DNA of 64,000 bases from Phenylobacterium sp. (GTDB lineage Bacteria > Pseudomonadota > Alphaproteobacteria > Caulobacterales > Caulobacteraceae), in the NCBI GenBank assembly GCA_018001015.1, contig JAGNIV010000020.1, positions 1 through 64,000 of the forward strand, written 5' to 3'. Below are positions 14,963 to 45,738 of this stretch, piece after piece. The notes under the pieces were generated by a model that was given only the letters and a program-made list of their open reading frames with translations, searched no databases and had not been told where the DNA came from. The stretch's first letter is position 1; each line of letters begins with the position of its first letter. A program made the position numbers and the translations under genes.

Positions 14963-14977
14963 TGGGCCCGGTAGGAC
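14963..14977. repeat. Direct copy of the tRNA(CAU) 3' end (possible attachment site)
   Basis: TGGGCCCGGTAGGAC is identical to 45666-45680, the last 15 bases of the tRNA gene before CCA (acceptor strand and T-stem), in the same orientation. The tRNA is on the - strand with its 3' end facing this copy 30.7 kb away. This is the arrangement left by integrases that target tRNA 3' ends. No integrase is visible. Confidence 0.5.
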
Positions 14978-15024
14978 GCGCGCAAACTGCACGGATCAAG
15001 TCTGACAGGCCGTGTTGGCGGGCG

Positions 15025-15681
15025 TTATGGAGAATTCGCCGGGGCCCAAAGCTCTTGCTGAACCTGCGCAGCGAGGTGCAGCAGGTCCAGCAGGTGTTGG
15101 ACTTCGTCGTGAGGCGCTCCTACCCAAGCCATGCCCTCCAGCAGGCGGAGGCTCAGGCCGTGGAGCCCCGGGCCGAAGCCACCCGGCGACGCCTGACGCA
15201 TGGAGCAGGTCTGAGAGCCCTTGCCTTGCGGATGGCCCGCGGCGGCGGCCAGCCGGGCGCGCATCCGCGAGTTGGTGCGTGCGCAGCCCTCAAGCTCGAC
15301 GATCGCGATGAATGGCCGCTCCTGCAGCAGCGCCCAATAGGCCTCCACCGCCAAGACCGGATGGTCGCCATGGGACACATCCATCAAGGTCTTCACCCGC
15401 TCGGCCTTCAGCCGTTGGAGGTGACCGACGAGGGCGTCAGCCAGGGAATCCTGGTCGGGGAAGTGATAGTTGATCGCCGTGCGGACGAGGCCCGCAGCCC
15501 TGGCGATCCGCTGGTGGGTCGCGGCGTGATAGCCCTCGTCGGCGACCACGGCCACGGCGGCGTCCAGGATTCGCTGGCGGGTAGCGTCCCCCTTGCTGGA
15601 ACGCCGGACGGACTTGACCCCGCGTTTCGGCTGCGAACGCGATATCTTACGCGGCCGCGGTCGTTCTTGTTCGATCCACAT
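15025..15681 (-). CDS. TetR-family transcriptional regulator
   Basis: A 218-residue regulator. A basic N-terminal tail (RPRKISRSQPKRGVK) precedes the TetR helix-turn-helix at ~33-80, with TRQRILDAAVAVVADEGY and ATHQRIARAAGLVRTAINYH. The C-terminal ligand-binding region (80-218) is not recognisable. It lies just inside the left end of the putative island, and neither neighbour is an obvious target. Confidence 0.82.
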   Translation of the reverse strand: MWIEQERPRPRKISRSQPKRGVKSVRRSSKGDATRQRILDAAVAVVADEGYHAATHQRIARAAGLVRTAINYHFPDQDSLADALVGHLQRLKAERVKTLMDVSHGDHPVLAVEAYWALLQERPFIAIVELEGCARTNSRMRARLAAAAGHPQGKGSQTCSMRQASPGGFGPGLHGLSLRLLEGMAWVGAPHDEVQHLLDLLHLAAQVQQELWAPANSP

Positions 15682-15825
15682 ACGCCCTCAGGCTCCGAGA
15701 GATGAGCCAGACGGCCCTGGCCAAGGGGGCGGGAGCCCTCCGGCCGCGCCGGAGACTCTGGCCTCGAACCCGGCCGATCGGCGTGCTCGATCCTTGCCGA
15801 ACGGCCGGGCGGCCCCCGGTGAGGA

Positions 15826-16218
15826 TCAGCGCGCCGAGAGCACGATGTTCGTCGAGACCTGGGCGAACTCGCCGCCCGCCAGACGGTTATGCTTCACGAT
15901 GGCGCGGTAGCGGGTCATGGCCTTGTCGGCTGAGGCCGTGCTGCACCAGTCGAGGTCGAAGACCGCCAGCTCGCGGTTGAGGTAGGCGTTGCGGCAGACC
16001 CGGCTGGCGACCTGGCGAACCTCCAGGCGGACGACCCTGACATCCTTGCCGCGAAGGCTGATGGCCTCATGGGTCGGCGCCCGGGTGACGGTGACACCCG
16101 ACAGTTCCTGGGCCTGGGCGGCCGGCGCGGTGGCGAGGATGGCGGCGCTGGCCAGCAGGGTGGATGCAAGGGCCGCGAGGCGGCGGGTCGGGGTCGCGGG
16201 GGAACGGGTGGCGGGCAT
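15826..16218 (-). CDS. UrcA-family secreted protein
   Basis: A 130-residue exported protein. The signal peptide runs to about AQAQ (residue 36). The mature part has paired cysteines (VCRNAYLNRE and LDWCSTASADKAM) and ends IVLSAR, the pattern of the UrcA family of small periplasmic proteins common in Caulobacterales and Sphingomonadales; no function is established for the family. I start at ATG 16218, preceded by AAGGAGG six bases upstream, instead of seven codons earlier. A degenerate FNR-like box lies 53 bases upstream. Confidence 0.72.
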   Translation of the reverse strand: MPATRSPATPTRRLAALASTLLASAAILATAPAAQAQELSGVTVTRAPTHEAISLRGKDVRVVRLEVRQVASRVCRNAYLNRELAVFDLDWCSTASADKAMTRYRAIVKHNRLAGGEFAQVSTNIVLSAR

Positions 16219-16271
16219 GTGAGCCTCCTTCAATGACACCCCCAGCCTAGGCCAGACATCGCCCCCGACCT

Positions 16272-16285
16272 TTGCCGGCCATCAA
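16272..16285 (-). promoter_or_regulatory. Degenerate FNR/FixK-like box before the UrcA gene
   Basis: Reads TTGAT-GGCC-GGCAA on the - strand, one mismatch from TTGAY-N4-RTCAA. It lies 53 bases before the start of the UrcA-family gene, within the range seen for the stronger boxes. Confidence 0.38.
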
Positions 16286-16380
16286 CGGCGACCTTGATGT
16301 CTGCCGGAGGGTGCGACACCCCCGCTTCCCCCGTGGGCCGCCGCATGTCGCACCCCCGCTCACCGGCGTGGCGCTGCGGT

Positions 16381-16394
16381 TTGATCCCGATCAT
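16381..16394 (+). promoter_or_regulatory. FNR/FixK-type box of the quinone-biosynthesis operon
   Basis: TTGAT-CCCG-ATCAT, one mismatch at the final base. It lies 51 bases before ATG 16446 and inside a longer open frame, so it supports that start. It heads the FAD dehydrogenase-ubiTUV-D-amino acid dehydrogenase operon. Confidence 0.65.
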
Positions 16395-16445
16395 TCGGAT
16401 CTGCCCCCGGGGAGAGGAGACTGTCCTCAAACCCCTGGAGGTGAA

Positions 16446-17816
16446 ATGGATAGCCTGCTAGCCGACCTTGAGGCGCTGTTGGGCGCCGAGCACGTGCTGA
16501 CCGGCGAGACGGCGGCCGGATGGGCTTTCAGCCCCTGGACCCGGCTGGGAGCGCCGCGGGCGATCCTGCGGCCCGCGAGCACGCAGGAGGTGTCTGGGAT
16601 TCTGCGCCTGGCCCACGCCGCCGGCGCGGCCGTCGTCCCCTGGGGCGGGCGCACCGGCCTGGTGGACGGCGCCTTCGCCGAGGGCGCCCTGGCCCTCAGT
16701 CTCGACCGCATGGCCGCCATTGAGGAGATCGATCCGGTCGGCGCCACCATGACCGTCCAGGCAGGCTGCGTGCTGGAGACCGCCTGCGGCGCGGCGACGA
16801 GCCAGGACCTGTTCCTGCCGGTGGACCTGGGCGCGCGGGGCTCGGCCACCATCGGCGGCGTGATCTCCACCAATGCCGGCGGCAATCGAGTGCTGCGCTA
16901 TGGGATGACCCGGGAGTCGGTCCTGGGGTTGGAGGCCGTACTGGCCGACGGGACGGTGATCTCCTCCCTCAACCACCTGATCAAGAACAACGCCGGCTAT
17001 GATCTCAAGCAGCTGTTCATCGGGTCGGAAGGCACCCTGGGCGTCGTGACCCGCGCGGTGTTCCGCCTGCGGCCCAGGCCGGTGTCGCAGGAGACCGCCT
17101 GGCTGGCGGTGGACCGGTTCGAGGCGCTCTCGCCCCTGCTGCGGTCGCTGGAATCCTCCCTGGCCGGATCGCTGTCGGCTTTCGAGGTGATGTGGCCGGC
17201 CTTCTACGACCTGGTGACCACCCCGCCGGCGGCGGGCCGCCCGATCCTGCCGGCGGGCCACGCCTACTACGTCTTGGTGGAAGCCCTGGGTCCGGACCTG
17301 ACCCACGACGCAGCGCGGTTCGAGCGGATGCTGACCGACGCCCTGGAGAATGGTCTGGTGGCCGACGCGGCCATAGCCAAGTCCCAGGCCGAGCGGGACC
17401 GCATGTGGGCGCTACGGGACGACGTGGCCCAGACCGCGCGCAACGGCCCGATCATCACCTTCGACGTCAGCCTGCCGATCGCCGCGATGGCGGCCTATGT
17501 GGCCGAGGTGCGCGTGGCCCTGGCCGCTCGCTGGCCCCAGGCGGGGATGACCGTCTTCGGCCACCTGGGCGACGGCAACCTGCACCTGATCATCGGCGTC
17601 GCCCAGCCGGACGCCCGCCCGGAGATCGAGGAGATGGTCTATGAGCCCCTGCGCGCCCGCGCCGGGTCGATCTCCGCCGAGCATGGGATCGGCCTGCAAA
17701 AGCGCCCCTACCTCGCCTATTCCCGCAACCCGGCTGAGCTCGCCCTGATGCGAGCGCTGAAGACGGCCCTGGACCCGCTGGGCATCCTCAATCCCGGCAA
17801 GGTCATCCCCGCTTGA
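16446..17816 (+). CDS. FAD-linked 2-hydroxyacid dehydrogenase (GlcD/D-lactate dehydrogenase type)
   Basis: A 456-residue PCMH-type flavoprotein. The FAD-binding half includes VVPWGGRTGLVDG, SATIGGVISTNAGGNRVLRY and FIGSEGTLGVVT. The C-terminal half has TVFGHLGDGNLHLII and SAEHGIGLQKRPYL, typical of D-lactate, D-2-hydroxyglutarate or glycolate dehydrogenases that give electrons to quinone. ATG 16446 is preceded by GGAGGTGAA. It precedes ubiT by 73-109 bases on the same strand behind an anaerobic box, so it may be an electron donor to the quinone pool made by the next genes. The substrate cannot be read from sequence. Confidence 0.85.
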   Translation: MDSLLADLEALLGAEHVLTGETAAGWAFSPWTRLGAPRAILRPASTQEVSGILRLAHAAGAAVVPWGGRTGLVDGAFAEGALALSLDRMAAIEEIDPVGATMTVQAGCVLETACGAATSQDLFLPVDLGARGSATIGGVISTNAGGNRVLRYGMTRESVLGLEAVLADGTVISSLNHLIKNNAGYDLKQLFIGSEGTLGVVTRAVFRLRPRPVSQETAWLAVDRFEALSPLLRSLESSLAGSLSAFEVMWPAFYDLVTTPPAAGRPILPAGHAYYVLVEALGPDLTHDAARFERMLTDALENGLVADAAIAKSQAERDRMWALRDDVAQTARNGPIITFDVSLPIAAMAAYVAEVRVALAARWPQAGMTVFGHLGDGNLHLIIGVAQPDARPEIEEMVYEPLRARAGSISAEHGIGLQKRPYLAYSRNPAELALMRALKTALDPLGILNPGKVIPA

Positions 17817-17925
17817 TGATCGGCAAAGCCTGACTTGAGCAAGATCTGCGGGTGCGGCGGCGATCGCCCGGTTCCCCGCGCCGCAGGGCGTGACGCAGGT
17901 TGGTGTCCTCCAAGAGGTTCCAGTC

Positions 17926-18450
17926 ATGCGTACGCAACACAGGCCCCGAGCAGCCCGGCGGGGCGACCCCGCCCAGGTGCTGATGACGCTGCGGCCACCG
18001 GCCGAGTGGTTGCTGACCTCGGCCCTGCGTCGGGTGGCGCAACGGAGGCCCGAGGTCTTCGAGCGGCTGGGCGCATTTGCCGACGCCGCCTTCGTGATCG
18101 CGCCCGACGGCTGGCCGGTGGTGTTCCGGCTGGCGCCCCAGGGCGCGTCATCAGGCGTCCAGGTGCGGCGGCGCGATGATCGCTCGCCCTGCGCCGCCCG
18201 GATCGAAGGACCGCTCGGCGCCCTGCTGGGGTTGTTCGACGGCTCCCTGGACGCCGACTCCGCCTTCTTCTCGCGGGCCATCCGGGTCAGCGGCGACATC
18301 GATGCGGTAATGGCCCTCCACAACACCCTGGAGGCCGCCGAACTAAGCCTGGCCGACCTGCTGGGTCTGCCGGCGACGGCGGGGAATGCGGCCAACGCCG
18401 CCCTGCGCTTTGTCCGCCAGGCGGCGGCCGCCAAAGCCGCGTGGGCCTGA
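17926..18450 (+). CDS. ubiT: Anaerobic ubiquinone biosynthesis accessory factor UbiT (SCP2 domain)
   Basis: A 174-residue SCP2-type lipid-binding protein. The domain spans about 30-140, with FADAAFVIAPDGWPVVFRL, then ARIEGPLGALLGLFDGSLDADSAFFSRAIRVSG, matching UbiT/YhbT. UbiT binds isoprenoid quinone intermediates and is needed for oxygen-independent ubiquinone synthesis. A longer version from GTG 17890 is possible; ATG 17926 is preceded by AAGAGG. It ends 10 bases before ubiU. Family context (ubiT-ubiU-ubiV) makes the call firm. Confidence 0.88.
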   Translation: MRTQHRPRAARRGDPAQVLMTLRPPAEWLLTSALRRVAQRRPEVFERLGAFADAAFVIAPDGWPVVFRLAPQGASSGVQVRRRDDRSPCAARIEGPLGALLGLFDGSLDADSAFFSRAIRVSGDIDAVMALHNTLEAAELSLADLLGLPATAGNAANAALRFVRQAAAAKAAWA

Positions 18451-18460
18451 GATGGGATCG

Positions 18461-19444
18461 ATGGAACTCGTCTGCCCGGCCGGCTCTCCGGCCATGCTTC
18501 GTGCGGCGATCGAAGCCGGCGCCGACAGCGTCTATTGCGGCCTGCGGGATGAGACCAACGCCCGCAACTTCCCCGGCCTCAACTTCTCCACCGCCGAGCT
18601 GAAGGCGGACGTCCTCTGGGCGCATGATCGCGGCGCCAAGGTGCTGGTGGCGATCAACACCTTCGCCCGCGCCGGCGAGACCGACGCCTGGCGAGCCTCC
18701 GTGAACAGCGCCGCGGCGGCAGGCGCCGACGCCATCATCGTCGCTGACCTGGGGGTGCTGGCCTACGCCCACGCCGAGCATCCCGACCTGCGGCTGCACC
18801 TGTCGGTCCAGGCCGCCGCGGGCTCGCCCGAGGCCATCGCCTTCTACGCCGGAGCCTACGGTGTGAAACGCGTCGTCCTGCCGCGGGTGCTCTCCGCGCC
18901 GGAGATCGCGGCCCTGGTGCGCGAGACCGATGTGGAGGTGGAGGCCTTCGTCTATGGCGGACTCTGCGTGATGGCCGAGGGCCGCTGCGCGCTGTCTTCC
19001 TACGCCACCGGCAAGTCCCCCAATCTCTCCGGGGTGTGTTCGCCGCCGGAGGCGGTCTCCCTGGAGGAGACCGACGGACTGCTGACCCCTCGTCTCGGGG
19101 GCTTCATGATCGACCAGGTCGCGCCCGGCGCGGCCGCCGGCTACCCGACCCTCTGCAAGGGCCGCTTCGAGGCCGAGGGGGCGGCGTCCCACCTGTTCGA
19201 GGACCCCACCAGCCTCAACGCCATGGCCCTGCTGGCCGAACTGCGGACCGCCGGGGTGCGGGCGGTGAAGATCGAAGGTCGCCAGCGTGGCAAGGCCTAT
19301 GTGGCCCGCGTGGCCGCGGCCTTCCGGGCGGCGCTCGACGCCCTGGACCGGGGCGAGACCACCGCCCCCTATGAAGCCAGGCTCACCCATCTCGCCGAGG
19401 GCGGCCGGGAGACGGCCGGCGCCTACCGGAAGACCTGGCGATGA
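18461..19444 (+). CDS. ubiU: Oxygen-independent ubiquinone hydroxylase subunit UbiU (peptidase U32 family)
   Basis: A 327-residue protein beginning MELVCPAGSP, as UbiU does. From this start the four 4Fe-4S cysteines are C169, C176, C193 and C232, the same numbers as in E. coli UbiU (GGLCVMAEGRCALSS, LSGVCSP, PTLCKGRF). ATG 18452 is three codons earlier. UbiU and UbiV form a heterodimer that carries out the ring hydroxylations of ubiquinone without O2. The end overlaps ubiV by four bases (ATGA). Confidence 0.94.
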   Translation: MELVCPAGSPAMLRAAIEAGADSVYCGLRDETNARNFPGLNFSTAELKADVLWAHDRGAKVLVAINTFARAGETDAWRASVNSAAAAGADAIIVADLGVLAYAHAEHPDLRLHLSVQAAAGSPEAIAFYAGAYGVKRVVLPRVLSAPEIAALVRETDVEVEAFVYGGLCVMAEGRCALSSYATGKSPNLSGVCSPPEAVSLEETDGLLTPRLGGFMIDQVAPGAAAGYPTLCKGRFEAEGAASHLFEDPTSLNAMALLAELRTAGVRAVKIEGRQRGKAYVARVAAAFRAALDALDRGETTAPYEARLTHLAEGGRETAGAYRKTWR

Positions 19445-20349
19445 GCGGCGCGCCGATCGAGATCGCCCTCGGGCCGCTGCTGTTCAACTGGTCGGCTGAC
19501 CGTATCGCTGACTTCTACGCCGCGATCGCCGACGAGAGCGAGATCGACCGCGTCTATCTGGGCGAGGTGGTCTGCGGAAAGCGCGAGCCCTTCATCTTCA
19601 GACCCCTGGCCGAGGCCGCCGAGCGCCTGACCCGAGCCGGCAAGACCGTCGTCTGGTCGACCCTGGCCCTGCCGGCGACGCCGCGTGACCGGCGCGGGAT
19701 GGCTCAGATGGCCGCCGACGAGACCCTGGTGGAGATCAACGATGTCTCGGCTCTGGCCCATCGCCCGCTTGGCGCGCCCTTCGTGGCCGGCCCCCTGCTG
19801 AATATCTACAACGAGGCCGCCGCACGGGAGCTGATCGGGCGCGGCTGTGTGCGCCTCTGCCCCAATGTCGAGCTTTCGCTCGCGGCGATCGGCCGCCTGG
19901 CTCAGTCCTGTCCGGGGCTGGAGATCGAACTATTCGCCTATGGCCGCCTGCCGCTGGCCCTGTCGGGGCGCTGCTATCACGCCCGCGTCCGGGGACTGCA
20001 CAAGGACGCCTGCCAGCTGGTCTGCGACCGCGATCCCGACGGCCTCACGGTGCGCACCCTGGAGGGTCAGGACTTCCTGGCGGTGAACGGGGTGCAGACC
20101 CTGTCCCATGGGGTGCAGGTGGCCGACCTGCCGATCACCCAACTCCGCGCCGCCGGGATCGGGGCCCTGCGCCTGTCGCCTCAAACCGGGGACATGCGCA
20201 AGGTGATCACGGCCTTCCGGGACTTCAGCCACGAACGGTTGTCGCCCCAGGACCTGGCGGCCAGGGTGCGGGAGGCCGGGCCGCCGGGCCCGCTGGTCAA
20301 CGGCTATCTGCACGGCCGGGCGGGCGTCGACTGGGCGCCGACGTCATGA
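19441..20349 (+). CDS. ubiV: Oxygen-independent ubiquinone hydroxylase subunit UbiV (peptidase U32 family)
   Basis: A 302-residue U32-family protein. Its cluster cysteines are C45 (LGEVVCGKREPF), C178, C191 and C195; the C-x12-C-x3-C spacing of the last three is that of E. coli UbiV. It partners UbiU. ATG overlaps the ubiU stop, and its own stop overlaps the next gene by four bases. The presence of ubiTUV means this organism can make ubiquinone during nitrate respiration without oxygen. Confidence 0.94.
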   Translation: MSGAPIEIALGPLLFNWSADRIADFYAAIADESEIDRVYLGEVVCGKREPFIFRPLAEAAERLTRAGKTVVWSTLALPATPRDRRGMAQMAADETLVEINDVSALAHRPLGAPFVAGPLLNIYNEAAARELIGRGCVRLCPNVELSLAAIGRLAQSCPGLEIELFAYGRLPLALSGRCYHARVRGLHKDACQLVCDRDPDGLTVRTLEGQDFLAVNGVQTLSHGVQVADLPITQLRAAGIGALRLSPQTGDMRKVITAFRDFSHERLSPQDLAARVREAGPPGPLVNGYLHGRAGVDWAPTS

Positions 20350-21563
20350 CCGCCTGTCCCTCGCGCCAGGTCTTCGATGTGGTGGTGCTGGGCGGCGGCA
20401 TCGCCGGGGCCGCCCTGGCCGCCCAACTTGCAGGCGACCTGCGGGTGGCCCTGGTGGAGCGGGAGTCGCAGCTTGGCTATCATACCACCGGGCGTTCCGC
20501 GGCGATGTACATCCCCTCCTATGGCGGCCCCGCGGTCCAGCCGCTCACCGCCGCAAGCCGGGGCTTCTTCCAGGACCCTCCGTGGGGCTTCGCCGGGCGC
20601 CTGCTGAGCCCGCGTCCAGTGCTGCATGTCGCGCGCGCCGACCAGGTGCAGCGCCTGGAGGACTTCGCGCACCAGAATCGGGACACCGCCGCCCTGCGGC
20701 GACTAAGCCGTGACGGCGCCCGGGTGCGGGCTCCGATTCTGCGGCCCGAGGCGGTTCACGCCGCCCTGCTGGAGACCGGGGCGGGCGACCTGGACGTGGC
20801 GCGGCTGCACGGTGGCATGGTGCGCCGGGCCCGGGAGGCCGGCGCCGTCATCCTCGCCGACGCCGGCAAGCCCGACATCGTCCGCGAGGGGTCGCGGTGG
20901 CAGGTGCGGACCCGGCAGGCCAGCCTCATCGCCCCGACCCTGGTCAACGCCACCGGCGCCTGGGCCGACGAGACCGCGCTGGACGCCGGCCTGTCCCCCA
21001 AGGGCCTGACGCCGTTGCTGCGGACCGCCATCCTGGTGGACGCGCCCCGTGAACTCGGCTTCCACGACTGGCCGGTGGTGAAGGACATCGACGAGCGGTT
21101 CTATTTTCGTCCCTTCGGCGGACGCCTGTTGATCACGCCGGCCGACGAGGCCCCGAGCCCGCCCTGCGACGCCGCGCCGGATGAGCTGGACATCGCCTGC
21201 GCCGTGATGCGGTTCCATGACGCCGCCGATCACCCGGTGACTCGGATCCACCACCGCTGGGCGGGCCTGCGCACCTTCGCGAGCGACCGCGCCCCGGTGA
21301 TCGGCTGGTCGGAGACGAGCCCGGGGTTCTTCTGGCTGGCGGGGCTGGGCGGCTTTGGCATCCAGACCGCCCCGGCCGTGGCCCGGCTGGCCGCCGCCCA
21401 GGTGCTCGGCCATCGCACGCCTCAGGACCTGGCCGACCATGGGGTTGAGCCCGCGGCCTACGATCCGGGCCGGCTCAGCGCGACCCGGCGCCCGACTGCT
21501 CCGTCGGCGCCCGGTCGGGACCCGCGGGTGGCTGATAGGCCGCCAGGTCTTCGAGCGTGTTGA
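20346..21563 (+). CDS. FAD-dependent D-amino acid dehydrogenase (DauA/D-arginine dehydrogenase-like)
   Basis: A 405-residue DAO-superfamily flavoprotein. The N-terminal dinucleotide fold is VVVLGGGIAGAALAAQL. GYHTTGRSAA, LTAASRGFFQDPP, LLSPRP and WAGLRTFASDRAPVIGW closely follow the catabolic D-arginine dehydrogenase DauA, and FGIQTAPAVARLAA ends the FAD domain. It is coupled to ubiV by ATGA. The natural C-terminus seems to be about YDPGRLS (residue ~378); the remaining ~27 residues are Pro/Arg-rich and overlap convergent mobA by 89 bases, so the gene may have lost its original stop. The substrate is not determined. Confidence 0.8.
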   Translation: MTACPSRQVFDVVVLGGGIAGAALAAQLAGDLRVALVERESQLGYHTTGRSAAMYIPSYGGPAVQPLTAASRGFFQDPPWGFAGRLLSPRPVLHVARADQVQRLEDFAHQNRDTAALRRLSRDGARVRAPILRPEAVHAALLETGAGDLDVARLHGGMVRRAREAGAVILADAGKPDIVREGSRWQVRTRQASLIAPTLVNATGAWADETALDAGLSPKGLTPLLRTAILVDAPRELGFHDWPVVKDIDERFYFRPFGGRLLITPADEAPSPPCDAAPDELDIACAVMRFHDAADHPVTRIHHRWAGLRTFASDRAPVIGWSETSPGFFWLAGLGGFGIQTAPAVARLAAAQVLGHRTPQDLADHGVEPAAYDPGRLSATRRPTAPSAPGRDPRVADRPPGLRAC

Positions 21564-22101
21564 GATTGACGAAGGGATCGGGTCCGGCGACCTCCCAGGC
21601 CACCTCACGCAGACCGACGTACTCTGCGAAGCCGCGCAGGGACGAGCGGCCCGACGCCACATAGGCCTCCAGCCGATCGCGCGTGCCGACGCGCCAGAGG
21701 CCGCAGACCGGATGCACGCGACCGTCGCTCACCGGCAGGACCGCGCCGACGCCGGACTCCAGGGCCTGGGCCAGCTGATCGCTGAGGTCGGCCGGCAGAT
21801 AGGGCATGTCGCAGGCCAGGGTCTGGACCCAGGGCGCGCCGCGCCGACGGCCGAAATCGAGGGCCGAGGCGAGGCCCGCCAGGGGGCCGCCGATGTCCGG
21901 CGGATCGAACAGCAGCGGAATTCCGGCCCCCTGCCCCACCTGGCCGGCGTCCCGTACGGCCACGGCGACGTGGGGCGCATAGCTCCGCGCCAAGCCCAGG
22001 GCCTGGGCCAGCAACGGGCGGCCATCCCAGGCGCGCAGCGGCTTGCCGCCCCCCATCCGACGGCCTTCGCCCCCGGCCAGGACGACAGCGGCGCCGCTCA
22101 A
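21475..22101 (-). CDS. mobA: Molybdenum cofactor guanylyltransferase MobA
   Basis: A 208-residue nucleotidyltransferase adding GMP to molybdopterin to form the MGD cofactor that NarG needs. The signature is VVLAGGEGRRMGGGKPL at the N-terminus, followed by FDPPDIGGPLAGL, ACDMPYLP and FVNLNTLEDL. The start is TTG 22101 overlapping the can stop (TTGA), with GAGGA upstream; the frame is open further but the upstream part lies inside can. It is the last gene of the nar transcript. Confidence 0.88.
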   Translation of the reverse strand: MSGAAVVLAGGEGRRMGGGKPLRAWDGRPLLAQALGLARSYAPHVAVAVRDAGQVGQGAGIPLLFDPPDIGGPLAGLASALDFGRRRGAPWVQTLACDMPYLPADLSDQLAQALESGVGAVLPVSDGRVHPVCGLWRVGTRDRLEAYVASGRSSLRGFAEYVGLREVAWEVAGPDPFVNLNTLEDLAAYQPPAGPDRAPTEQSGAGSR

Positions 22102-22763
22102 GATCTTGTCCTCGCGGCCTTGCGGCGCGGCTCGCCGCCCGTGGGCGCGCCGGCCAGAGCCCGGGCCTGATGCAGGTCGCTGACGGTGGTCTCCAGGTCG
22201 CGCAGCAGGCCGTCGTGGATGGAATAGATCCACCCGTGCACCGCCAGGGGCTGACCGCGACGCCAGGCGTCATGCGCCAAGGGGTTGCCGGCGAGGCTGA
22301 TCACTTGCTCGATCACGTTGTGCTCGCACAGGTGGTTGACCCGGGCCTCGACGTCGAGGATCGCCTCCAGCTCCTCGGCATGGCGCCAGAACAGGCTGCG
22401 CACCGGTTGCAGCCAATGGTCCACCAGGCCGTGGCGCGCGCCGCTCAGGGCCGCCCGTACCCCGCCGCAGCCGTAGTGGCCACAGACGATCACGTGCCGC
22501 ACCTTGAGAACCTCCAGCGCGTATTGCAGGACCGAGAGGAAATTGGAGTCCTGGGCCGGGGCGAGGTTGGCCAGGTTGCGGTGCACGAAGAGCTGACCAG
22601 GCGCCAGGCCCGTCAAGTCATGGGCCGGCAGATGGCTATCGGCGCAGCCGATCCACAGATAGTCCGGCGCCTCCTGGGCCGCGAGGTCGGGAAAGTAATT
22701 CCGGTCATCCCGCGCCCTGGCCGCCGCCCAGGCCAGGTTGCGTCGGAACAGGGCCTGGGTCAC
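22098..22763 (-). CDS. can: Beta-class carbonic anhydrase with Arg-to-His change in the active-site dyad
   Basis: A 221-residue beta carbonic anhydrase (CO2/bicarbonate interconversion). Zinc ligands are C40, D42, H96 and C99 in IGCADSHLPA and VIVCGHYGCGG. The residue at 44 is His (codon CAT) where the family has Arg (CADSRVP), the partner that pairs with the Asp in the open active site. It lies in the nar operon, overlapping the hemerythrin gene by four bases and mobA by four. It may supply bicarbonate during anaerobic growth; whether it is active or permanently in the closed, Asp-ligated state is unknown. Confidence 0.88.
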   Translation of the reverse strand: MTQALFRRNLAWAAARARDDRNYFPDLAAQEAPDYLWIGCADSHLPAHDLTGLAPGQLFVHRNLANLAPAQDSNFLSVLQYALEVLKVRHVIVCGHYGCGGVRAALSGARHGLVDHWLQPVRSLFWRHAEELEAILDVEARVNHLCEHNVIEQVISLAGNPLAHDAWRRGQPLAVHGWIYSIHDGLLRDLETTVSDLHQARALAGAPTGGEPRRKAARTRS

Positions 22764-23275: not shown

Positions 23276-23331
23276 GGGGACCTCCTCGATCTCGGTCGTT
23301 TGTTTCACCGCCCCCTCCTCTCGACCTTGGG

Positions 23332-35241: not shown

Positions 35242-35321
35242 CTTGTCCCCCGGCCTCTGCGTAGCGGGGCCAGACGCCCTCGCTTCGCCCACGTCTATGC
35301 CGTTGGCCGGGAGGCTTTGAA

Positions 35322-35497: not shown

Positions 35498-35550
35498 GGC
35501 TCGACTCGCCGGCCTGGCCGATGGGTGATCGAGGTAAGAGGACCACACGA

Positions 35551-37496: not shown

Positions 37497-38690
37497 TTAA
37501 GCCGGAACCGCCCTGCCCCGCGGCCGGGCTGGCCATCCCAGCAACATCGGCCCGTAGGCCACGGCGAAGCCGCCGAAAGCCGCGCTCCAGAGCACGCCGG
37601 AAATCGCCAGCAGGGCTGTCCCCCCCGCCCCTCCGAACCCGGCGCCGACTCGAACCAGGGCGGCGGCGTTGATCAGCAGGTAGATGGCCAGCGTCCAACC
37701 ATCGGCGACTCGGGGCCGGCCGCTGTGGCCGCGAGTGGCCCGGGTCATCATGGCCAGGGTCATGACCCCCACCGCGCCCGCCGTCAGGGCATGGACTCCC
37801 GCGGTGCGCGGCACGCTGTCCGGCGCCAGGATGGTGAGGCCGGTCAGGATCAGTCCGATCCCCAGCCAAGCGTAGCCAAGGTGAAGGATCCAGACCAGCG
37901 GCTCGGTCAGGGTCCGCAGCCCCTGCCAGCGCGCCAGGCGGGCCAGGGCCGCAAGGCCCGCGGCCGTCAGCAGCCCGCCGGCCAGGGGGCTTTCGGGAGC
38001 CGCCGTCCAGGAGACGGCGGCCAGGCCGGTGAGGATCAGGGCGGCCGTGTCGGCGCGATCGGCGGGGGCGGGCAGCGGGCCGGGCGCATGCTGGGTCAGC
38101 CAGTTGCGGGTGAAGCTCGGAGTCACCCGCCCGCCGATCAGGGCGATGAGCAGGGCCACGGCGCCCAGAGCGGCCCGTTGCGCGACCGCCTCGGGCGCGA
38201 GCCCCCCCAGGTGGAAGGCGATATTGGCGCAGGCCAGCACAGTGACCAGGCCGCAGACGGCCAGGTTGCGCCAGTTTCGAGCGGCCAGGACCTCTCGCCA
38301 GATCACGCTCGCGAAGACCACCAGAAAGGCGCTGTCGACCAAGCTCGCCCAGACCCCGAGTTCGGTGGCCGCCAGCATCGCCAGGCGCCCGGCCAGCCAA
38401 AGGCCAGACAGGGCGGCGAGCGGCGCGCCCATCACGGGCAGGCGTCCGGTCCAGTTGGGGACGGCGGTCAGCAGGAAGCCGGCGACGATGCCGGCCAACA
38501 CCCCAAACAGCATCTCGTGGATGTGCCACTCGCGGGTGAGCGCGGTCCAGGGCAGATAGCCCGTGAAGGACAGCAGCCAGAGGGGAACGGTCAGCGCCGC
38601 CCAGATCGAGGCGGCGAGGAAGAAGGGGCGGAAGCCGTAGCTGAAGAGCTTCGGCCCCCGGTAGGCGCGCCGATCGGCGGCGGTGGCCAT
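37497..38690 (-). CDS. nnrS: NnrS family heme-copper membrane protein
   Basis: A 397-residue protein with twelve hydrophobic segments. FSYGFRPFFLAASIWAALTV at the N-terminus, WHIHEMLFGVLAGIVAGFLLT and AVPNWTGRLPV are the NnrS signature. NnrS lessens nitrosative stress and usually travels with denitrification genes controlled by NO-responsive Crp/Fnr regulators. An FNR-like box lies 61 bases upstream. No nitrite or NO reductase accompanies it here. Confidence 0.92.
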   Translation of the reverse strand: MATAADRRAYRGPKLFSYGFRPFFLAASIWAALTVPLWLLSFTGYLPWTALTREWHIHEMLFGVLAGIVAGFLLTAVPNWTGRLPVMGAPLAALSGLWLAGRLAMLAATELGVWASLVDSAFLVVFASVIWREVLAARNWRNLAVCGLVTVLACANIAFHLGGLAPEAVAQRAALGAVALLIALIGGRVTPSFTRNWLTQHAPGPLPAPADRADTAALILTGLAAVSWTAAPESPLAGGLLTAAGLAALARLARWQGLRTLTEPLVWILHLGYAWLGIGLILTGLTILAPDSVPRTAGVHALTAGAVGVMTLAMMTRATRGHSGRPRVADGWTLAIYLLINAAALVRVGAGFGGAGGTALLAISGVLWSAAFGGFAVAYGPMLLGWPARPRGRAVPA

Positions 38691-38778: not shown

Positions 38779-40995
38779 TCATGCGCATTTGGAGTAGCCG
38801 CAGCCGAAGCAGGTGTCGCAGCCCTCCTTGCGGACCAGCTCCAGCCCGCCGCACTGCGGACAACAGGCCTTGCCCGATGTGTGGGCGTGGGGCGCCATGG
38901 CGGCGTGAGCCGGCGCCGCGGCGGCCTCTATCCTCAGGTGGCGCTCGATCACGCCGCCGATGGCCGCAGGTAGGGACGGCACATAGCGCCCGTCGATCCA
39001 GCCGCCGCCGCTGGGGTCGAACACCGCCTTCAGCTCCTCGGCCACGAAGGCCACGTCACCGCCCCGGCGGAACACCGCCGAGATCATTCGCGTCAGGCCG
39101 AGCGTCCAGGCGTAGTGCTCCATGTTCTTGGAGTTGACGAAGATCTCGAAGGGGCGTGGCCCTTCCCCGATGTCGGCGTCGTTGATGGTGACGTAGACCG
39201 CGTGCGCGCTCTGCGGCCATTTGATCTTGTAGGTCGCCCCCTGCAGGACGTCCGGCCTCGGCGAGAGCTTGGGTTCGGCCGGCTCGGCCGCCCCGGGCGT
39301 CGGCGCCACCGAGAGCACCGATCCGGTGACGGCGTTGGGGCGGTAGGTGGTCAGGCCCTTGCAGCCCAGACGGTAGCCTTCGAGATAGATGTCGGAGAAA
39401 TCGGCGAAGGCGATATCTTCCGGACAGTTCACGGTCTTGGAGATCGAACTGTCGATGCAGGTCTGGGCCGCGGCCTGCATACGCAGGTGGTCGGCCGGGG
39501 CCAGGTCCTGGGCGCTGACGAACAGCTCGGCGGGCGGCTCGACCTCGCCCTTCAGCCCGCGCCAAACCGAGAGCGCATAGTCCTCCACCTGCTCCTCCCG
39601 CGAGGAGCCGTCGCGCTGACGCACCTTGCGGGTATAGGCGTAGGCGAAGACCGGCTCGACGCCCGAGGAGACATTGCCCGCCAGCAGCGAGGTCGTGCCG
39701 GTGGGGGCTATGGAGGTCAGGCAGCCGTTGCGCAGCCCATGCTGGGCGATCAGGGCGCGGGTCTCCTCGTCGAGATCGCGCAGGTTGGGCCTCTCCAGGA
39801 TCTGCGGGTCGTAGAGCGGGAAGCTGCCCTTCTCGGCGGCCAGCTCAGCCGAGGCGCGATAGGCCTCGCGCTTGATCACCGTGAGCCAGCGCCGGGTCAG
39901 GGCCACGGCCTCGTCCCCGCCATAGCGGGCGCCGCAGAACAGCAGGGCGTCGGCCAGGCCGGTGACGCCGATGCCGATCCGCCGTTTGGCGCGCGCCTCG
40001 GCCGCCTGCGCCTCCAGCGGGAAGCGCGAGATGTCGATGACATTGTCCAGCATGCGGACCGCGGTGCGGGTCAGCCCCCCCAGCCGCGCCTCGTTCAGTT
40101 CGGCGCCGTCCGAGAAGGGCGCCTCCACCAGCCGGGCCAGGTTCAGCGACCCCAGCAGGCAGGCGCCGTAGGCCGGCAGCATCTGCTCGCCGCAAGGATT
40201 GCTGGCCAGGATCTCCTCGCAATAGGCCAGGTTGTTGTTGGCGTTGACCCGGTCGATGAAGATCACCCCCGGCTCGGCGGCGTCATAGGTGGCGGTCATC
40301 AGCCGCGCCCAGAGGTCGGCGGCCCGAACATTGCGGTGGATCTTTCCGTCGAACACCAGGGGCCACTCGGCGTCGGCCGCCAGGGCCTGCATGAAGGCGT
40401 CGCTCACCAGGACCGAGAGGTTGAAGTTACGCAGACGGCCAGGCTCGCGCTTGGCGTCGATGAAGGCCTCGATGTCGGGATGATCGATGCGCAGGCAGCC
40501 CATCATCGCCCCCCGGCGCTGCCCCGCCGACAGGATGGTGCGGCACATGGAGTCCCACACGTCCATAAAGCTGAGCGGCCCCGAGGCGTCGGCGCCAACC
40601 CCCCGGACCAGCGAACCGTTGGGCCGCACCGAAGAGAAATCCATGCCAACGCCGCCGCCCTGCTGCAGGGTGACGGCGGCCTCGCGGACGTGCTCGAAGA
40701 TGGCGCCCAGGTCGTCGGGGATAGCGCCCATGACGAAGCAGTTGAACAGGGTGACCGACCGCTGGGTGCCGGCCCCGGCGAGGATGCGGCCGGCCGGCAG
40801 GAAGCGGTAGTCGGTGAGCGCCTCCATCACCTCGGCGCGGAAGGCTTCCCGGCGCTCGGGGGCCTCAGGCTCGCTCACCGCGCGGGCGACGCGCGCCCAG
40901 GTCTCGGCGACGCTGGCGTCCCCGCCCCCGCCTTGCGGGGCGAAACGGTACTTGCTGGACCAGATTTCTCCGGCGAGGGGATTGTCGAAGGCCAT
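38779..40995 (-). CDS. nrdJ: Adenosylcobalamin-dependent (class II) ribonucleotide reductase
   Basis: A 738-residue enzyme that makes deoxyribonucleotides using a B12 radical, independent of O2. VTLFNCFVMGAIPDD, LQQGGGVGMDFSSVRPNGS, NPCGEQMLPAYGACLLGSLN and SIAPTGTTSLLAGNVSSG follow the class II/I fold. The C-terminal HTSGKACCPQCG with CDTCFGCGYSKCA carries the redox-active and zinc-ribbon cysteines. The frame is open to 41109, but I start at ATG 40995 (MAFDNPLAGEIW). No cobalamin riboswitch is apparent upstream. It allows DNA synthesis during anaerobic nitrate growth. Confidence 0.94.
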   Translation of the reverse strand: MAFDNPLAGEIWSSKYRFAPQGGGGDASVAETWARVARAVSEPEAPERREAFRAEVMEALTDYRFLPAGRILAGAGTQRSVTLFNCFVMGAIPDDLGAIFEHVREAAVTLQQGGGVGMDFSSVRPNGSLVRGVGADASGPLSFMDVWDSMCRTILSAGQRRGAMMGCLRIDHPDIEAFIDAKREPGRLRNFNLSVLVSDAFMQALAADAEWPLVFDGKIHRNVRAADLWARLMTATYDAAEPGVIFIDRVNANNNLAYCEEILASNPCGEQMLPAYGACLLGSLNLARLVEAPFSDGAELNEARLGGLTRTAVRMLDNVIDISRFPLEAQAAEARAKRRIGIGVTGLADALLFCGARYGGDEAVALTRRWLTVIKREAYRASAELAAEKGSFPLYDPQILERPNLRDLDEETRALIAQHGLRNGCLTSIAPTGTTSLLAGNVSSGVEPVFAYAYTRKVRQRDGSSREEQVEDYALSVWRGLKGEVEPPAELFVSAQDLAPADHLRMQAAAQTCIDSSISKTVNCPEDIAFADFSDIYLEGYRLGCKGLTTYRPNAVTGSVLSVAPTPGAAEPAEPKLSPRPDVLQGATYKIKWPQSAHAVYVTINDADIGEGPRPFEIFVNSKNMEHYAWTLGLTRMISAVFRRGGDVAFVAEELKAVFDPSGGGWIDGRYVPSLPAAIGGVIERHLRIEAAAAPAHAAMAPHAHTSGKACCPQCGGLELVRKEGCDTCFGCGYSKCA

Positions 40996-41095
40996 GGCGC
41001 TCTCTCTGCGTGGGGAGAGGCAGGCTGGCCGATTCCCTGCGGCGCACAGGTCGCGCAATGGATGTCGCAGGCCGACAAGTCGGCCAGGACTCGAC

Positions 41096-41109
41096 TTGGC
41101 GAAAATCAA
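41096..41109. promoter_or_regulatory. FNR/FixK-type box between nrdJ and a RIC-like gene
   Basis: TTGGC-GAAA-ATCAA on the + strand (TTGAT-TTTC-GCCAA on the - strand), one mismatch. It lies 72 bases before the RIC-like ATG and 100 bases before nrdJ, and could serve both. Confidence 0.5.
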
Positions 41110-41819: not shown

Positions 41820-43007
41820 TCAGAGATCGAGGACCTCGACCCCATCGCCAACCGCCGCCGCGCCATCTCCGGGCCGGCGGCGGATCAGCAGGTCGGCCAG
41901 GGCCAGAGTCTTCTGTGACGAGGAGTCCTGGTCGGCGAGGGGCGAGACGCCGGTCGCGACGTTCCGCGCCCGCACGAAGGTTTCCCGATCACCGCACGCT
42001 TCCAGCCCGACAGCCAGCCGCGCGGCGCGCCAGGCCAGGGCCGTACGCGGATCCCGCCCCCCGAGCCCGGCGATCAGAGGCGCCAGCAGCAGGCGCGCCG
42101 TCACCAGGGCCGCAGTGGGATTGCCCGGCAGGCCCACCACCAGCTTGCCCCCGGCCCGCCCCAGCCAGACCGGCTTTCCGGGCTTGATGGCCACCTTGGC
42201 GAAGACGCAGTCCAGGCCAAAGGGCGCGAACATCGCCTTGGCGTAGTCCCGCTGCCCGACGGAGGCGCCGCCGGTGACCACCACCAGGTCGGCGGCCTCA
42301 AGGGCCGCGCCGGCCGCCGCCTGCAGGAGCGGAAGCTGGTCTCCCAGCCGCCGACGCCCGGCCACTTCCCCACCCCAGGCGCGCACCAGGGCGGCCAGAC
42401 CGAAGGAGACGCTCTCGGGAATCGACCCGCCGACGCCCGTTCCGTGGCCGGGTTCATGCAATTCATCGCCGGTGCTGAGGATCATCACCCTGGGCCGGGA
42501 CACCACCTCAACCTCGGACAGGTCGGCCGCCGCCGCCGCGATCAGCCGCTGCGGCGTAAGCCGCAGGCCCGCCGCCAGGAGTTCGTCGCCTGCCCGGAAG
42601 TCGCAGCCGGCCGCGCGGACATGCCGCCCGCCGCAGGGCGCCTGAGCGAAAAACGCCACAGGCCCCTCATCGCCCACCACTTCCTGCATCACCACCCGGT
42701 CGGTCCCGGCCGGCAAGGGGGCGCCCGTGAAGACGCGCACGCAGGCGCCGCGCGCCAGCGCTTGGTCAAGGCCATGACCGGCATAGGCGGCGCCCATCAC
42801 CGGCAGCCGGACAGGCCCGCCCGCCAGGTCGGCCTCGCGCACGGCGTAGCCGTCCATGGCCGAGACCGCGACGGCGGGGGACGACCACTGCGCCACCACC
42901 GGAACGGCGAGGACCCGGCCATCGGCCTGGTCGAGCCCGATCCGCTCATTGGCAAGAGGGCGGGCCAGGGTGGCAACCAGGGCCACAGCGTCGTCGAAGC
43001 TGATCAA
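41820..43007 (-). CDS. moeA: Molybdopterin molybdenumtransferase MoeA
   Basis: A 395-residue enzyme inserting molybdate into adenylated molybdopterin. Conserved blocks include AVSAMDGYAVREADL, VFTGAPLPAGTDRVVMQE, RPRVMILSTGDELHEPG, VVVTGGASVGQRDYAK and GLPGNPTAALVTARLLLAP. It overlaps moaB by four bases and ends the acyl-CoA dehydrogenase-moaB-moeA unit. Confidence 0.93.
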   Translation of the reverse strand: MISFDDAVALVATLARPLANERIGLDQADGRVLAVPVVAQWSSPAVAVSAMDGYAVREADLAGGPVRLPVMGAAYAGHGLDQALARGACVRVFTGAPLPAGTDRVVMQEVVGDEGPVAFFAQAPCGGRHVRAAGCDFRAGDELLAAGLRLTPQRLIAAAAADLSEVEVVSRPRVMILSTGDELHEPGHGTGVGGSIPESVSFGLAALVRAWGGEVAGRRRLGDQLPLLQAAAGAALEAADLVVVTGGASVGQRDYAKAMFAPFGLDCVFAKVAIKPGKPVWLGRAGGKLVVGLPGNPTAALVTARLLLAPLIAGLGGRDPRTALAWRAARLAVGLEACGDRETFVRARNVATGVSPLADQDSSSQKTLALADLLIRRRPGDGAAAVGDGVEVLDL

Positions 43008-43543
43008 TTGCAGACGCCCCGATAGCGCGGAATCTGGCCCACCAGCGAGCAGGGGCGGAACCGGCTGTCGAATTCCTCGGCCAGCACCAGGTCCCAGGCG
43101 TCCTTGCAGGCGCCGGTCGAACCGGGGACGCAGAAGATGAAGGTCTCGCCGATCTGACCGGCCAGGGCGCGCGACTGCAGGGTCGAGACCCCCACCGTGC
43201 CCCGGCTCGCCTGGTGAAAGACCACCGAGAAGCCGTCCATGGTGCGATCCAGCAAGGGCGTGACCGCCTCAGGCGTCACGTCACGGGGCGAGAAGCCGGT
43301 GCCGCCGGTGGTCAAGATCACGTCCACATCGGCCGCCTCCGCCCAGGCCCGAACCTGGGCCCCGATGGCCTCGACGTCGTCAGTGACGATGGCGCGGCCA
43401 GCCAGGACGTGACCCGCGCTGGTCAGTCGGTCGGCCAGCAGGCCGCCGGAGGTGTCGGTGACCAGAGTCCGGGTGTCGGAGATGGTCAGGACCGCGATGT
43501 TCAGCGGGTGAAAGGGCAACCGTTCGTCGATGCCGGTCTTCAT
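43004..43543 (-). CDS. moaB: Molybdopterin adenylyltransferase family protein MoaB/MogA
   Basis: A 179-residue protein with the MogA/MoaB fold: IAVLTISDTRTLVTDTSGG at the N-terminus, then ILTTGGTGFSPRDVTPEA and FCVPGSTGACKDAWD. It adenylates molybdopterin ahead of MoeA. LTTGGTG plus the short length fits MoaB better than MogA, but the two cannot be separated with certainty. It starts 26 bases after the acyl-CoA dehydrogenase gene and is coupled to moeA. Confidence 0.9.
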   Translation of the reverse strand: MKTGIDERLPFHPLNIAVLTISDTRTLVTDTSGGLLADRLTSAGHVLAGRAIVTDDVEAIGAQVRAWAEAADVDVILTTGGTGFSPRDVTPEAVTPLLDRTMDGFSVVFHQASRGTVGVSTLQSRALAGQIGETFIFCVPGSTGACKDAWDLVLAEEFDSRFRPCSLVGQIPRYRGVCN

Positions 43544-43569: not shown

Positions 43570-44859
43570 CTAGGCCGGAGTCGGGACCTGCCCGGCGTCC
43601 AGCGGCGCGCCGTCGCGCCAGGCCCGCAGGCGGGCGCCGTGGCGGCCCATCTCCAGCTTGGCGATGGCGCGCTTGTGCACCTCGTCGGGACCGTCGGCGA
43701 TCCGCAGGGCGCGCATGCCGGCATAGGCCCGGGCCAAGCCGAAGTCCTCCGACAGACCCGCCCCGCCATGTGCCTGCATGGCGTCGTCCAGCACCTTCAG
43801 GGCGGTGCGCGGCGCGGCCACCTTGATCATGGCGATCTCAAGCTGAGCAGCCTTGTTACCGACCTTGTCCATCATGTCGGCGGCCTTCAGGCACAGCAGG
43901 CGGGTCATCTCGATCTCCAGCCGCGCCTCGCCGATGCGTTCCTCCCAGACGGACTGGTCGGCCAGGCGCTTGCCGAAGGCGACCCGTGACAACAGACGAT
44001 CGACCATCTTCTCTAGAGCCACCTCGGTGGCGCCGAGCGCCCGCATGCAGTGGTGGATGCGGCCGGGGCCCAGCCGGCCCTGGGCGATCTCGAATCCGCG
44101 CCCCTCCCCCAGGATCAGGTTCTCCACCGGGACGCGGACGTCGCGCAGCATCACCTCGGCGTGGCCGTGGGGCGCGTCGTCATAGCCGAACACCGGCAGC
44201 ATGCGGACCACCTCGAAACCTGGCGCGTCGGTGGGGATCAGGATCTGGGACTGCTGGGAATGGCGGGCGCCCTCGGGATCCGTCTTGCCCATCAGGATGG
44301 CCAGCTTGCAGCGCGGGTCGCCAATGCCCGAGGACCACCACTTGCGGCCGTTGATGACGTAGCTGTCGCCGTCGCGGCGGATCGAGGTCTGGATGTTGGT
44401 GGCGTCGGAGGAGGCCACGTCGGGCTCAGTCATCAGGAAGGCCGAGCGAATCTCGCCGTCCATCAGCGGCCGCAGCCACTGGGCCTTCTGGTCGGGCGAG
44501 CCGTACTGGCGCAGCACCTCCATGTTGCCGGTGTCCGGCGCCGAGCAGTTGAACACCTCCGAGGCGAAGCTGACCCGGCCCATCTCCTCGGCGCAGAGCG
44601 CATATTCCAGGTTGCTGAGGCCCGGCCCCTGGAAGTCGTCGCCGTCATGCTCCGACGGATTGAGGAACAGGTTCCACAGCCCCTCGGAGAAGGCCCGCGC
44701 CTTCAGCTCCTCGACGATGGGGATGACGCTCCACCGCGCGGCCCCCTCGCGGGCGGTCTGCTGCTGATAGATCGGGATGGCGGGATAGATTCGGTCGGCC
44801 ATGAAGGTCCGGACGCGGTCGCGCCACATGGTCTCACGCTCGGAAAGGCCAAAGTCCAT
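43570..44859 (-). CDS. Acyl-CoA dehydrogenase (ACAD10/11-like)
   Basis: A 429-residue flavoprotein. [19 protein letters not shown] and [17 protein letters not shown] bind FAD and substrate; [19 protein letters not shown] with [19 protein letters not shown] closes the C-terminal domain, as in the ACAD10/11 subgroup. It oxidises an acyl-CoA at C2-C3; chain length is unknown. It is the first gene of a transcript with moaB and moeA and has an exact FNR-type box 55 bases upstream, so expression should be anaerobic although its pathway has no visible link to nitrate. Confidence 0.88.
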
Positions 44860-44914
44860 GGGCAGGCTCCCTCTAGATCGGGGGCGAACCTAGGGCCACC
44901 GCCGGTCCGACGCC

Positions 44915-44928
44915 TTGATGGGCGTCAA
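44915..44928 (-). promoter_or_regulatory. FNR/FixK-type box of the acyl-CoA dehydrogenase-moaB-moeA unit
   Basis: TTGAC-GCCC-ATCAA on the - strand, exact, 55 bases before the start of the acyl-CoA dehydrogenase gene. Confidence 0.75.
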
Positions 44929-45081
44929 CCCGCCGCTCGACGATAGTCACACCGCGCGGTTCCGACGTTCAGGGCGACGAATTTCCAGGAGGGAGGTGGA
45001 TGTCGGCACGTCCCGTTGGCCGGCGCCGCGCAGGCCTTGGATGGCCTCCCAATACCCCATCAAGGCGATCGGACCCTCGAC

Positions 45082-45095
45082 TTGACCTCCGTCAA
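45082..45095 (+). promoter_or_regulatory. FNR/FixK-type box of a small conserved gene
   Basis: TTGAC-CTCC-GTCAA, exact. Its centre is 41.5 bases from the A of ATG 45130, exactly the distance at which FNR-type activators sit from a transcription start, which suggests a leaderless mRNA. Confidence 0.72.
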
Positions 45096-45129
45096 TGCAA
45101 AGGATGGCGCGCCGGCGTAGTTGATGGGC

Positions 45130-45537
45130 ATGACGGATCGCTCGCACTTCGAGCAGCTTCTGCTTGAGGCTGCCAAACAGCCCGAGAAGCAACGCCTGCT
45201 GTTCGTGTTCGCCCGCGCGGGGCTGCCCGATCACCCCAGCCTGCAACAGAGCGAACGCTTCCGTTCAGGTGAAGGCGGCACACTGACGCCGCTCATGTGC
45301 GTGGACAAGGACCCTTCCGAGCTCCGGGACTTCGACGCCCTGTCAGCGGAGGCCGCACGGGCAGGCCCGCCCTGGCAGGTGGTGTTCGCAGCCGGTCTCG
45401 GCGGCGTGGCGGGACGGCCTCCGACAGAAGCGCAAATTGCGCCGGCCCTTGAAAAGATGGTCCATGCCATATGGTCCGGCAGCGTCGGGCAGTTCGCAGC
45501 CTTCGACCCCACCGGCGCCTCATTGAGCTTCGGCTGA
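45130..45537 (+). CDS. Conserved hypothetical protein, anaerobically controlled
   Basis: A 135-residue soluble protein with no signal or membrane segment. RLLFVFARAGLPD, GGTLTPLMCVDKDPSEL and WQVVFAAGLGGVAGRPPTEAQI look like a compact alpha/beta domain; I have seen similar proteins labelled 'ribonucleotide reductase subunit alpha', a name that is not credible at this length. Starts at ATG 45124 (two codons earlier) or 45130 are possible; neither has a clear RBS, and the upstream box favours 45130 with a leaderless transcript. It lies at the right edge of the putative island next to the tRNA. Confidence 0.65.
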   Translation: MTDRSHFEQLLLEAAKQPEKQRLLFVFARAGLPDHPSLQQSERFRSGEGGTLTPLMCVDKDPSELRDFDALSAEAARAGPPWQVVFAAGLGGVAGRPPTEAQIAPALEKMVHAIWSGSVGQFAAFDPTGASLSFG

Positions 45538-45662
45538 TACGATCGCTGAAGGCTCGGCCGACGGCCGGATCGTCACAGTCGGCTGTACCGTGGGGAAGCG
45601 ACGACAGTGCCGGCGGCGCCAATCAAGCCGCTGTTGTTGAACGGACGTCGACGGAAGCGTGC

Positions 45663-45738
45663 TGGTGGGCCCGGTAGGACTCGAACCTACAACCAGACCG
45701 TTATGAGCGGTCGGCTCTAACCATTGAGCTACAGGCCC
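45663..45738 (-). tRNA. tRNA with CAU anticodon, probably tRNA-Ile2 (lysidine-modified)
   Basis: A complete 76-base cloverleaf including encoded CCA. The acceptor stem pairs GGGCCTG with CGGGCCC, and the anticodon stem GACCG/CGGTC encloses CTCATAA (anticodon at 45703-45705). The T-arm is GTAGG-TTCGAGT-CCTAC. The body (GTAGCTCAATGGTTAGAGC) resembles tRNA-Ile(CAU) more than elongator or initiator tRNA-Met, but this is not certain. Its 3' 15 bases before CCA recur at 14963-14977. Confidence 0.9.

Follow-up and report, generated by a model that had tools for sequence, protein, structure and literature searches.

A nitrate-respiration block as a probable exchangeable segment at a tRNA(CAU) site in Phenylobacterium

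The stretch of Phenylobacterium sp. DNA analysed here (GCA_018001015.1, contig JAGNIV010000020.1, positions 1 to 64,000; the whole 64,000-nucleotide stretch is referred to as the window) carries a 30.7-kb block of nitrate-respiration genes between a tRNA gene with the anticodon CAU and a short direct copy of the 3′ end of that gene, and the question is whether the block is a genomic island placed at the tRNA by an integrase or a resident segment beside which the repeat is incidental. A first-pass annotation, made from the sequence alone, had proposed an old or decayed island, or else chance. Comparison with 101 genomes of the same genus (382.8 Mb; cited below by G-numbers) indicates that the block is probably an exchangeable segment at a tRNA(CAU) integration hotspot. 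Alternative contents at the site, alignment breaks at the tRNA end and near its copy, and nitrate blocks framed by tRNA-end copies in other genomes speak for the island reading; a recent foreign origin finds no support, and an integrase that moved this particular block has to be postulated.

In the tRNA-anchored islands of tyrosine integrases (P4-type and similar), the 3′ end of the tRNA gene is the target and a direct repeat of it lies at the far end. In the window, the 15-base sequence TGGGCCCGGTAGGAC occurs at 14963–14977 and 45666–45680, both on the plus strand, and these are its sole exact occurrences in the 4,007,797-base (4.0 Mb) genome; begun at 14960 and 45663, the repeat spans 18 bases with one mismatch. 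The tRNA gene (45663–45738, minus strand) holds the intact copy (45663–45680) in its 3′ end, which points toward the far copy across the block, exactly as the first-pass annotation had described. ARAGORN labels this tRNA Met; we presume it to be tRNA-Ile(CAU), going by the acceptor pairs C4-G69 and C5-G68, and regard it as the integration target. The block accordingly has the 3′ end of a tRNA gene at one end and a direct repeat of it at the other, where the plus-strand copy at 14960–14977 is a probable decayed attachment site. When the 24 bases to the left of the far 15-mer were aligned with the tRNA flank, as high a score was reached by 0.3% of 4000 random window segments, and when they were aligned with the far repeat of G036, by 7% of random segments; an apparent extension of the repeat into these bases would be weak support for an attachment site. 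The sequence GGAAGCGTGC beside the tRNA, common to G024 and G026, was first taken as unoccupied flank counting against an island, an argument dropped because the bases next to both copies in G036 are almost identical to it; in this clade, it seems to belong to the attachment core.

The 18-base tRNA end was searched for in the 101 genomes with at most one mismatch, with the reversed pattern as a control. It gave 128 matches (109 of them exact), distributed over 93 genomes, of which 26 had two or more, and eight genomes had none; the control gave 26 matches in 382.8 Mb. The chance expectation derived from the control is 0.001 for a single strand of 30.7 kb and 0.004 for the two strands of 64 kb, which bears out the earlier estimate that such a repeat is improbable in a stretch of this length. 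Pure chance was rejected on this expectation, and an independent break in the alignment with the sister species G078 lies only 88 bases from the far copy. A looser test within the window (up to three mismatches) was uninformative, with six matches against 4.0 expected. In ten other genomes with a measured pair of copies on one contig, the exact bases shared were 25 in G036, 27 in G077, 26 in G047, 25 in G001, 29 in G020, 22 in G068, 21 in G009, 19 in G061, 17 in G002 and eight in G097 (with a mismatch inside the core), so that nine of the ten share 17–29.

The most direct evidence comes from the same site in close relatives. The core tree (22 genomes) pairs the window with G078 (support 0.993), followed by G035 (0.969), G036 (0.987) and G026 (1.000). 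The left flank of the window is matched in G078 at 81–12517 (91.4%), 12618–14223 (91.2%) and 14293–14875 (89.0%), and the match resumes at 45661 (93.8% over the first 963 bases; later pieces 88.7–94.4%, with one 336-base piece at 72.3%). The segment 14876–45660 is absent from this site in G078, and 1.8 kb with a carboxylesterase gene (PF00135) lies in its place; one break is at the tRNA 3′ end and the other within 88 bases of the far copy, and no second tRNA-end copy within three mismatches was found in the replacement stretch. G036 matches the window up to 14209 and again from 45652, with 15.6 kb of other cargo between (RND transporter, histidine kinase, response regulator and TonB-dependent receptor), bounded by the tRNA and a tRNA-end copy with 25 exact bases in common; the search of the 101 genomes at E ≤ 1e-100 found no narG in G036. 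The same stable neighbourhoods, fixLJ-cco-alternative oxidase-globin-like ORF to the left and tRNA-panD-rpoD to the right, therefore enclose three contents: the nitrate block in the window, an esterase in G078 and an efflux/TonB cargo in G036. The first-pass annotation had proposed to look in relatives for an empty site, and the comparison succeeds with a site that is otherwise occupied. Among the observations that it had listed as counting against an island, gradual divergence is seen between the carriers, whereas the block is not in all close relatives (G036 is without it) and clean junctions do exist. In other genomes, too, the right flank stands beside the tRNA, whole or in part, with differing DNA on the 3′ side. 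The junctions rest on assemblies, and many of the genomes are fragmented; genes in relatives are named by their matches to genes of the window or by Pfam searches.

Several further observations concern this site. The methyltransferase-like gene at 14293–14829, between a globin-like open reading frame (ORF) and the far repeat, has a DNA match in G078 and none in G036 or in the 10 other genomes compared. In congeners, copies of the tRNA 3′ end frequently bound the contents of this kind. Segments between tRNA-end copies were also seen in G001 (C163:1547-13778; 12.2 kb, copies sharing 25 bases, with TonB-receptor and ABC-transporter genes by eye) and in G020 (C8:62322-96468; 34.1 kb, 29 bases). 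In G029, about 7 kb without nar separates the hemN-cco cluster from this tRNA (C1:355852-365190), and two narG genes are carried elsewhere (C2:750052-753747 and C5:4637-8332). The left neighbour in G004 was considered as an ancestral flank and dropped, the same DNA being far from the tRNA in G024 and G011.

Two kinds of tyrosine integrase are found at this tRNA in relatives. The first (PF13356, PF22022 and PF00589) lies next to the 3′ side of the tRNA in G047 and G077; similarity also places it next to the tRNA in G067, G068 and G100 (truncated at the contig end) and next to a copy in G018. The second (PF20172, or DUF6538, and PF00589) is found 3′ of the tRNA in G061; another DUF6538 integrase was seen next to a tRNA-end copy in G080, and similarity places this type beside the tRNA in G026 (cut by contig end). 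Matches of 27 and 38 residues to the second type, beside the tRNA in G009 and G012, look like remnants. The repeat-bounded cargo stretches of G036, G001 and G020 gave no match to the two kinds. Next to the core, short stretches of flanking sequence turn up in more than one genome (in the G061, G080, G077, G047 and G067 stretches) and may be integrase arm sites.

Nitrate blocks between copies of the tRNA end, for which the first-pass annotation had suggested a search, were found in a second clade. G047, G077 and G080 have in common a roughly 30-kb nar block (86% identical); the stretches compared have no outer flanking DNA in common. Exact copies sharing 27 bases frame it in G077, 30.8 kb from each other (C67:5852-36624), and in G047, copies 39.0 kb apart with 26 bases in common enclose it together with further genes (C8:254812-293807). 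G056 has one tRNA-end copy (one mismatch) about 1 kb beyond the moaB end of nar. At E ≤ 1e-100, 29 of the 101 congeners have narG; in four of these 29, no more than 20 kb separates narG from a tRNA-end match (P = 0.0006, at 1.27 matches per genome), or in 3 of 28 without the window (P = 0.006); the 20-kb limit was chosen after the data had been seen, and contig ends restrict the count. Because of the repeat, the swapped contents, the framed nar blocks and the adjoining integrases, the tRNA site is regarded as an integrase hotspot in the genus and the block as an exchangeable unit.

Several findings weigh against this reading. The far repeat of the window, with only 15 exact bases, is shorter than in nine of the ten other pairs. 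There is no integrase gene in the element: no PF00589 match was found on the contig of the window, and a tblastn search of the window with four congeneric integrases gave nothing better than E = 0.20, in line with the first-pass annotation. In G077 and G047, the intact tRNA is on a different contig from the bounding copies and not contiguous with them. Nar stretches, which differ in length, were compared in 23 of the 29 nar genomes (G045, G055, G066, G071, G075 and G049 were left out), and a tRNA-end copy lies inside the stretch in only four (the window, G047, G077 and G056); the stretch of G024 extends to the tRNA itself, about 39 kb from nar, and the others contain no copy within three mismatches, a C-type core costing one mismatch in one of the scans. 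In G078, G035, G026 and G080 (C21:48350-78022), nar has no recognisable bounding copies at up to three mismatches, and movement there therefore needs another route.

The block is found whole at another locus of G078 (window positions 15062–44950 at C12:55538-85511; 92.2% identity over 21,265 bases and 91.8% over 8,656), between a TonB-dependent receptor gene and a phosphonate-binding (PhnD-like) gene. G035 has 15241–21448 directly against its tRNA (TetR piece 70.9%; 84.9% over 5,636 bases) and the complement, 21509–44954, on a different contig (88.8%), and the break (C90:43090, C1:58073) falls between the convergent FAD oxidase gene and mobA. In G026, 15079–36312 is on one contig and 36309–44955 on another, with the break between the convergent ftrB and moaA (C155:49794, C121:48156). 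An attachment-like motif at the TetR end of the G078 block was rejected, as it has the opposite orientation around the palindromic GGGCCC. A search for inverted repeats or target duplications at the block ends gave only 9–10-base matches in G078 and, in the window, only the known 15-mer and a 10-base inverted match.

The nar tree (21 genomes) has the order (G026,(G035,(G078,window))), which is that of the core tree with G036 absent. The DNA identity of the block between G078 and the window (92%) is like that of the flanks (mostly 89–94%), and protein identities are 98, 96 and 92% for narG, nrdJ and nnrS in the block and 100, 99, 94 and 93% for rpoD, panD, the beta-lactamase-fold gene and the esterase in the flanks. 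Because the trees are congruent in this clade and the protein and DNA identities agree, the block is judged from these sequences to have accompanied its hosts from before the divergence of the window and G078. After that split, its location shifted in one or both of these lineages, and loss of nar in G036 is the simplest reading of the trees.

The preferred mechanism, to which the exchangeable segment corresponds, would be the following. Integrases recognising the tRNA 3′ end would have inserted or removed the block and would since have been lost from this locus or have acted in trans; the copy at 14960–14977 would be the worn far attachment site. The nar block itself is an old resident of the clade that has moved as a unit or in two parts. 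A bolder form of this proposal, put forward tentatively and with less than even confidence, is that the 30-kb kit may be a domesticated mobile unit, inherited with its hosts and yet cut out and re-inserted, whole or halved, so frequently that its place is not conserved in any of the window, G078, G035 and G026, with the tRNA(CAU) site as a recurrent landing pad and integrases provided in trans by other elements at that site.

The alternative that survives best is that the order in the window is ancestral, the block having long stood beside the tRNA, moved away in G078 and been lost in G036, with the far copy a relic of an earlier event and without any recent insertion in the lineage of the window. 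This is quite plausible, if short of probable. In G035, the part of the block beside the tRNA is oriented as in the window; so is nar, with its near end some 39 kb from the tRNA, in G024, and in G026 the alternative oxidase and the TetR end, roughly 10 kb apart, have the relative orientation seen in the window. Some of the order of the window persists in each of these three genomes, which speaks for a long-standing position close to the tRNA. Against it, the left flank in G036, which branches outside the window, G078 and G035, is closed by an exact tRNA-end copy with other cargo, and the DNA beyond TetR in G035 differs from the left flank of the window; G036 and G078 together favour a recent arrival of the block at this site. 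General genome scrambling, common in the family, could instead have moved the block with no role for the tRNA, the repeat being a coincidence or a bystander. Consistent with this, G026 and G035 have the parts of the block scattered and broken where convergent genes end, and the passages of PMC4221894 on Caulobacter describe scrambled genomes, with transposases linked to about one third of the events. We nevertheless consider this explanation unlikely, since G078 and G036 are colinear with the window over the rest of the aligned sequence and depart from it in this segment alone, with breaks at the tRNA end and close to its copy, and since exact copies frame the nar blocks of G077 and G047. A recently imported foreign island, which the patchy spread of narG (29 of 101 genomes) might suggest, is very improbable and already contradicted within this clade, the carriers G078, G035 and G026 diverging like their flanks, trees being congruent, no compositional step being present and the best plasmid relatives of narG, which were considered as a source and rejected, reaching 72–75% among the matches listed (20 of 333 records). 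The likelihoods given here belong to partly overlapping readings and need not sum to one.

With regard to content, the first-pass annotation's nearly complete toolkit for anaerobic nitrate growth is broadly what the family searches returned. A respiratory Nar operon, with narI, narJ, narH and narG all over their curated cut-offs (TIGR00351, TIGR00684, TIGR01660 and TIGR01580), occupies 25650–32786 on the minus strand, next to two NarK-type nitrate/nitrite transporters (32426–35292, minus; only the first over the TIGR00886 cut-off) and, divergent from narK, an FtrB-type transcriptional activator (35521–36312, plus; NF006901 and NF050815 over cut-off). The distal end has a TetR-type regulator (15025–15681, minus; PF00440), followed by ubiT, ubiU and ubiV for oxygen-independent ubiquinone synthesis (17890–20349, plus; NF047962, NF047963 and NF047965 over cut-off) and by mobA-like, carbonic anhydrase-like and hemerythrin-domain (YtfE-like) genes (21475–23308, minus; NCBIfam scores below curated cut-offs). 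Toward the tRNA follow, all on the minus strand, moaA (36309–37298; TIGR02666 over cut-off), nnrS (37497–38690; PF05940), nrdJ for a B12-dependent ribonucleotide reductase (38779–41109; TIGR02504 over cut-off), a moeA-like gene with moaB (41820–43543; PF03453, PF00994 and PF03454, and TIGR02667 over cut-off) and, at the tRNA-proximal end, an acyl-CoA dehydrogenase family gene (43570–44859; below equivalog cut-offs). A plus-strand ORF of 138 amino acids (45121–45537) has no Pfam match and has a homologue at one end of the nar block in G077, G047 and G080. Judged by known families, this cargo would enable the cell to take up nitrate and reduce it to nitrite, to make molybdenum cofactor, to carry out oxygen-independent ubiquinone synthesis (UbiTUV) and ribonucleotide reduction (NrdJ), and to defend itself against nitric oxide (NnrS and the hemerythrin protein). 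Guanine-plus-cytosine content per 2-kb bin is 0.633–0.737 inside the block and 0.645–0.718 outside, with no step, as the first-pass annotation had noticed, and neither phylogeny nor composition is out of line with the host.

The left flank (317–14829) comprises fixLJ, hemN, the cco cluster, an alternative oxidase, a cytochrome c, an ORF without Pfam match that we take to be globin-like, and a weak methyltransferase match; it is colinear in G078 and, except for the last gene, in G036, and makes up a microaerobic cluster. The right flank (45835–56543) comprises a SIMPL gene, panD, a peptidase, an esterase, a beta-lactamase-fold gene, a 2-oxoglutarate oxygenase and rpoD, and is found beside this tRNA, whole or in part, in relatives. 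Two intergenic stretches of about 110 bases (12510–12621 and 49375–49487) have 72–92% matches at several places in relatives, most of all in G026, and resemble dispersed repeats.

The locus shares with known tRNA-anchored islands the tRNA 3′ target, the far direct repeat, variable cargo at one site and integrases beside the tRNA in congeners, and differs from them in that the window has no integrase, the far repeat is decayed, and the cargo is vertically inherited in the clade and present at other loci. The nitrate conjugative element of Thermus thermophilus is likewise a mobile nitrate-respiration determinant, and vertical inheritance of narG is inferred in Thermales in the passages of PMC10989939 that treat it; that element is described there as plasmid-borne. 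In the present block, no relaxase, type IV secretion or other conjugation gene is among the family matches of the main ORFs, no search having been aimed at conjugation genes. Sphingopyxis granuli TFA has a narUGHJI cluster with a divergent FtrB-type regulator, as here, which supports anaerobic growth on nitrate and is absent from the other Sphingopyxis strains compared; the relevant passages of PMC4741004 mention no tRNA boundary. The perchlorate reduction island and the nitrogen-fixation island of Pseudomonas stutzeri (PMC4623255, PMC4174501) are also metabolic blocks treated as genomic islands, for other metabolism. Among the matches listed in the open-access literature, no title describes a Phenylobacterium nar block beside this tRNA.

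About 100 congeneric genomes offer a comparison, at one defined site, of whether and where a nearly complete nitrate-respiration kit occurs. The metabolic cargo taken up at this tRNA site, which two kinds of integrase serve, showed no integrase of its own. A block can have the frame of a tRNA island and yet be inherited vertically; therefore, tRNA repeats alone are no proof of recent horizontal transfer.

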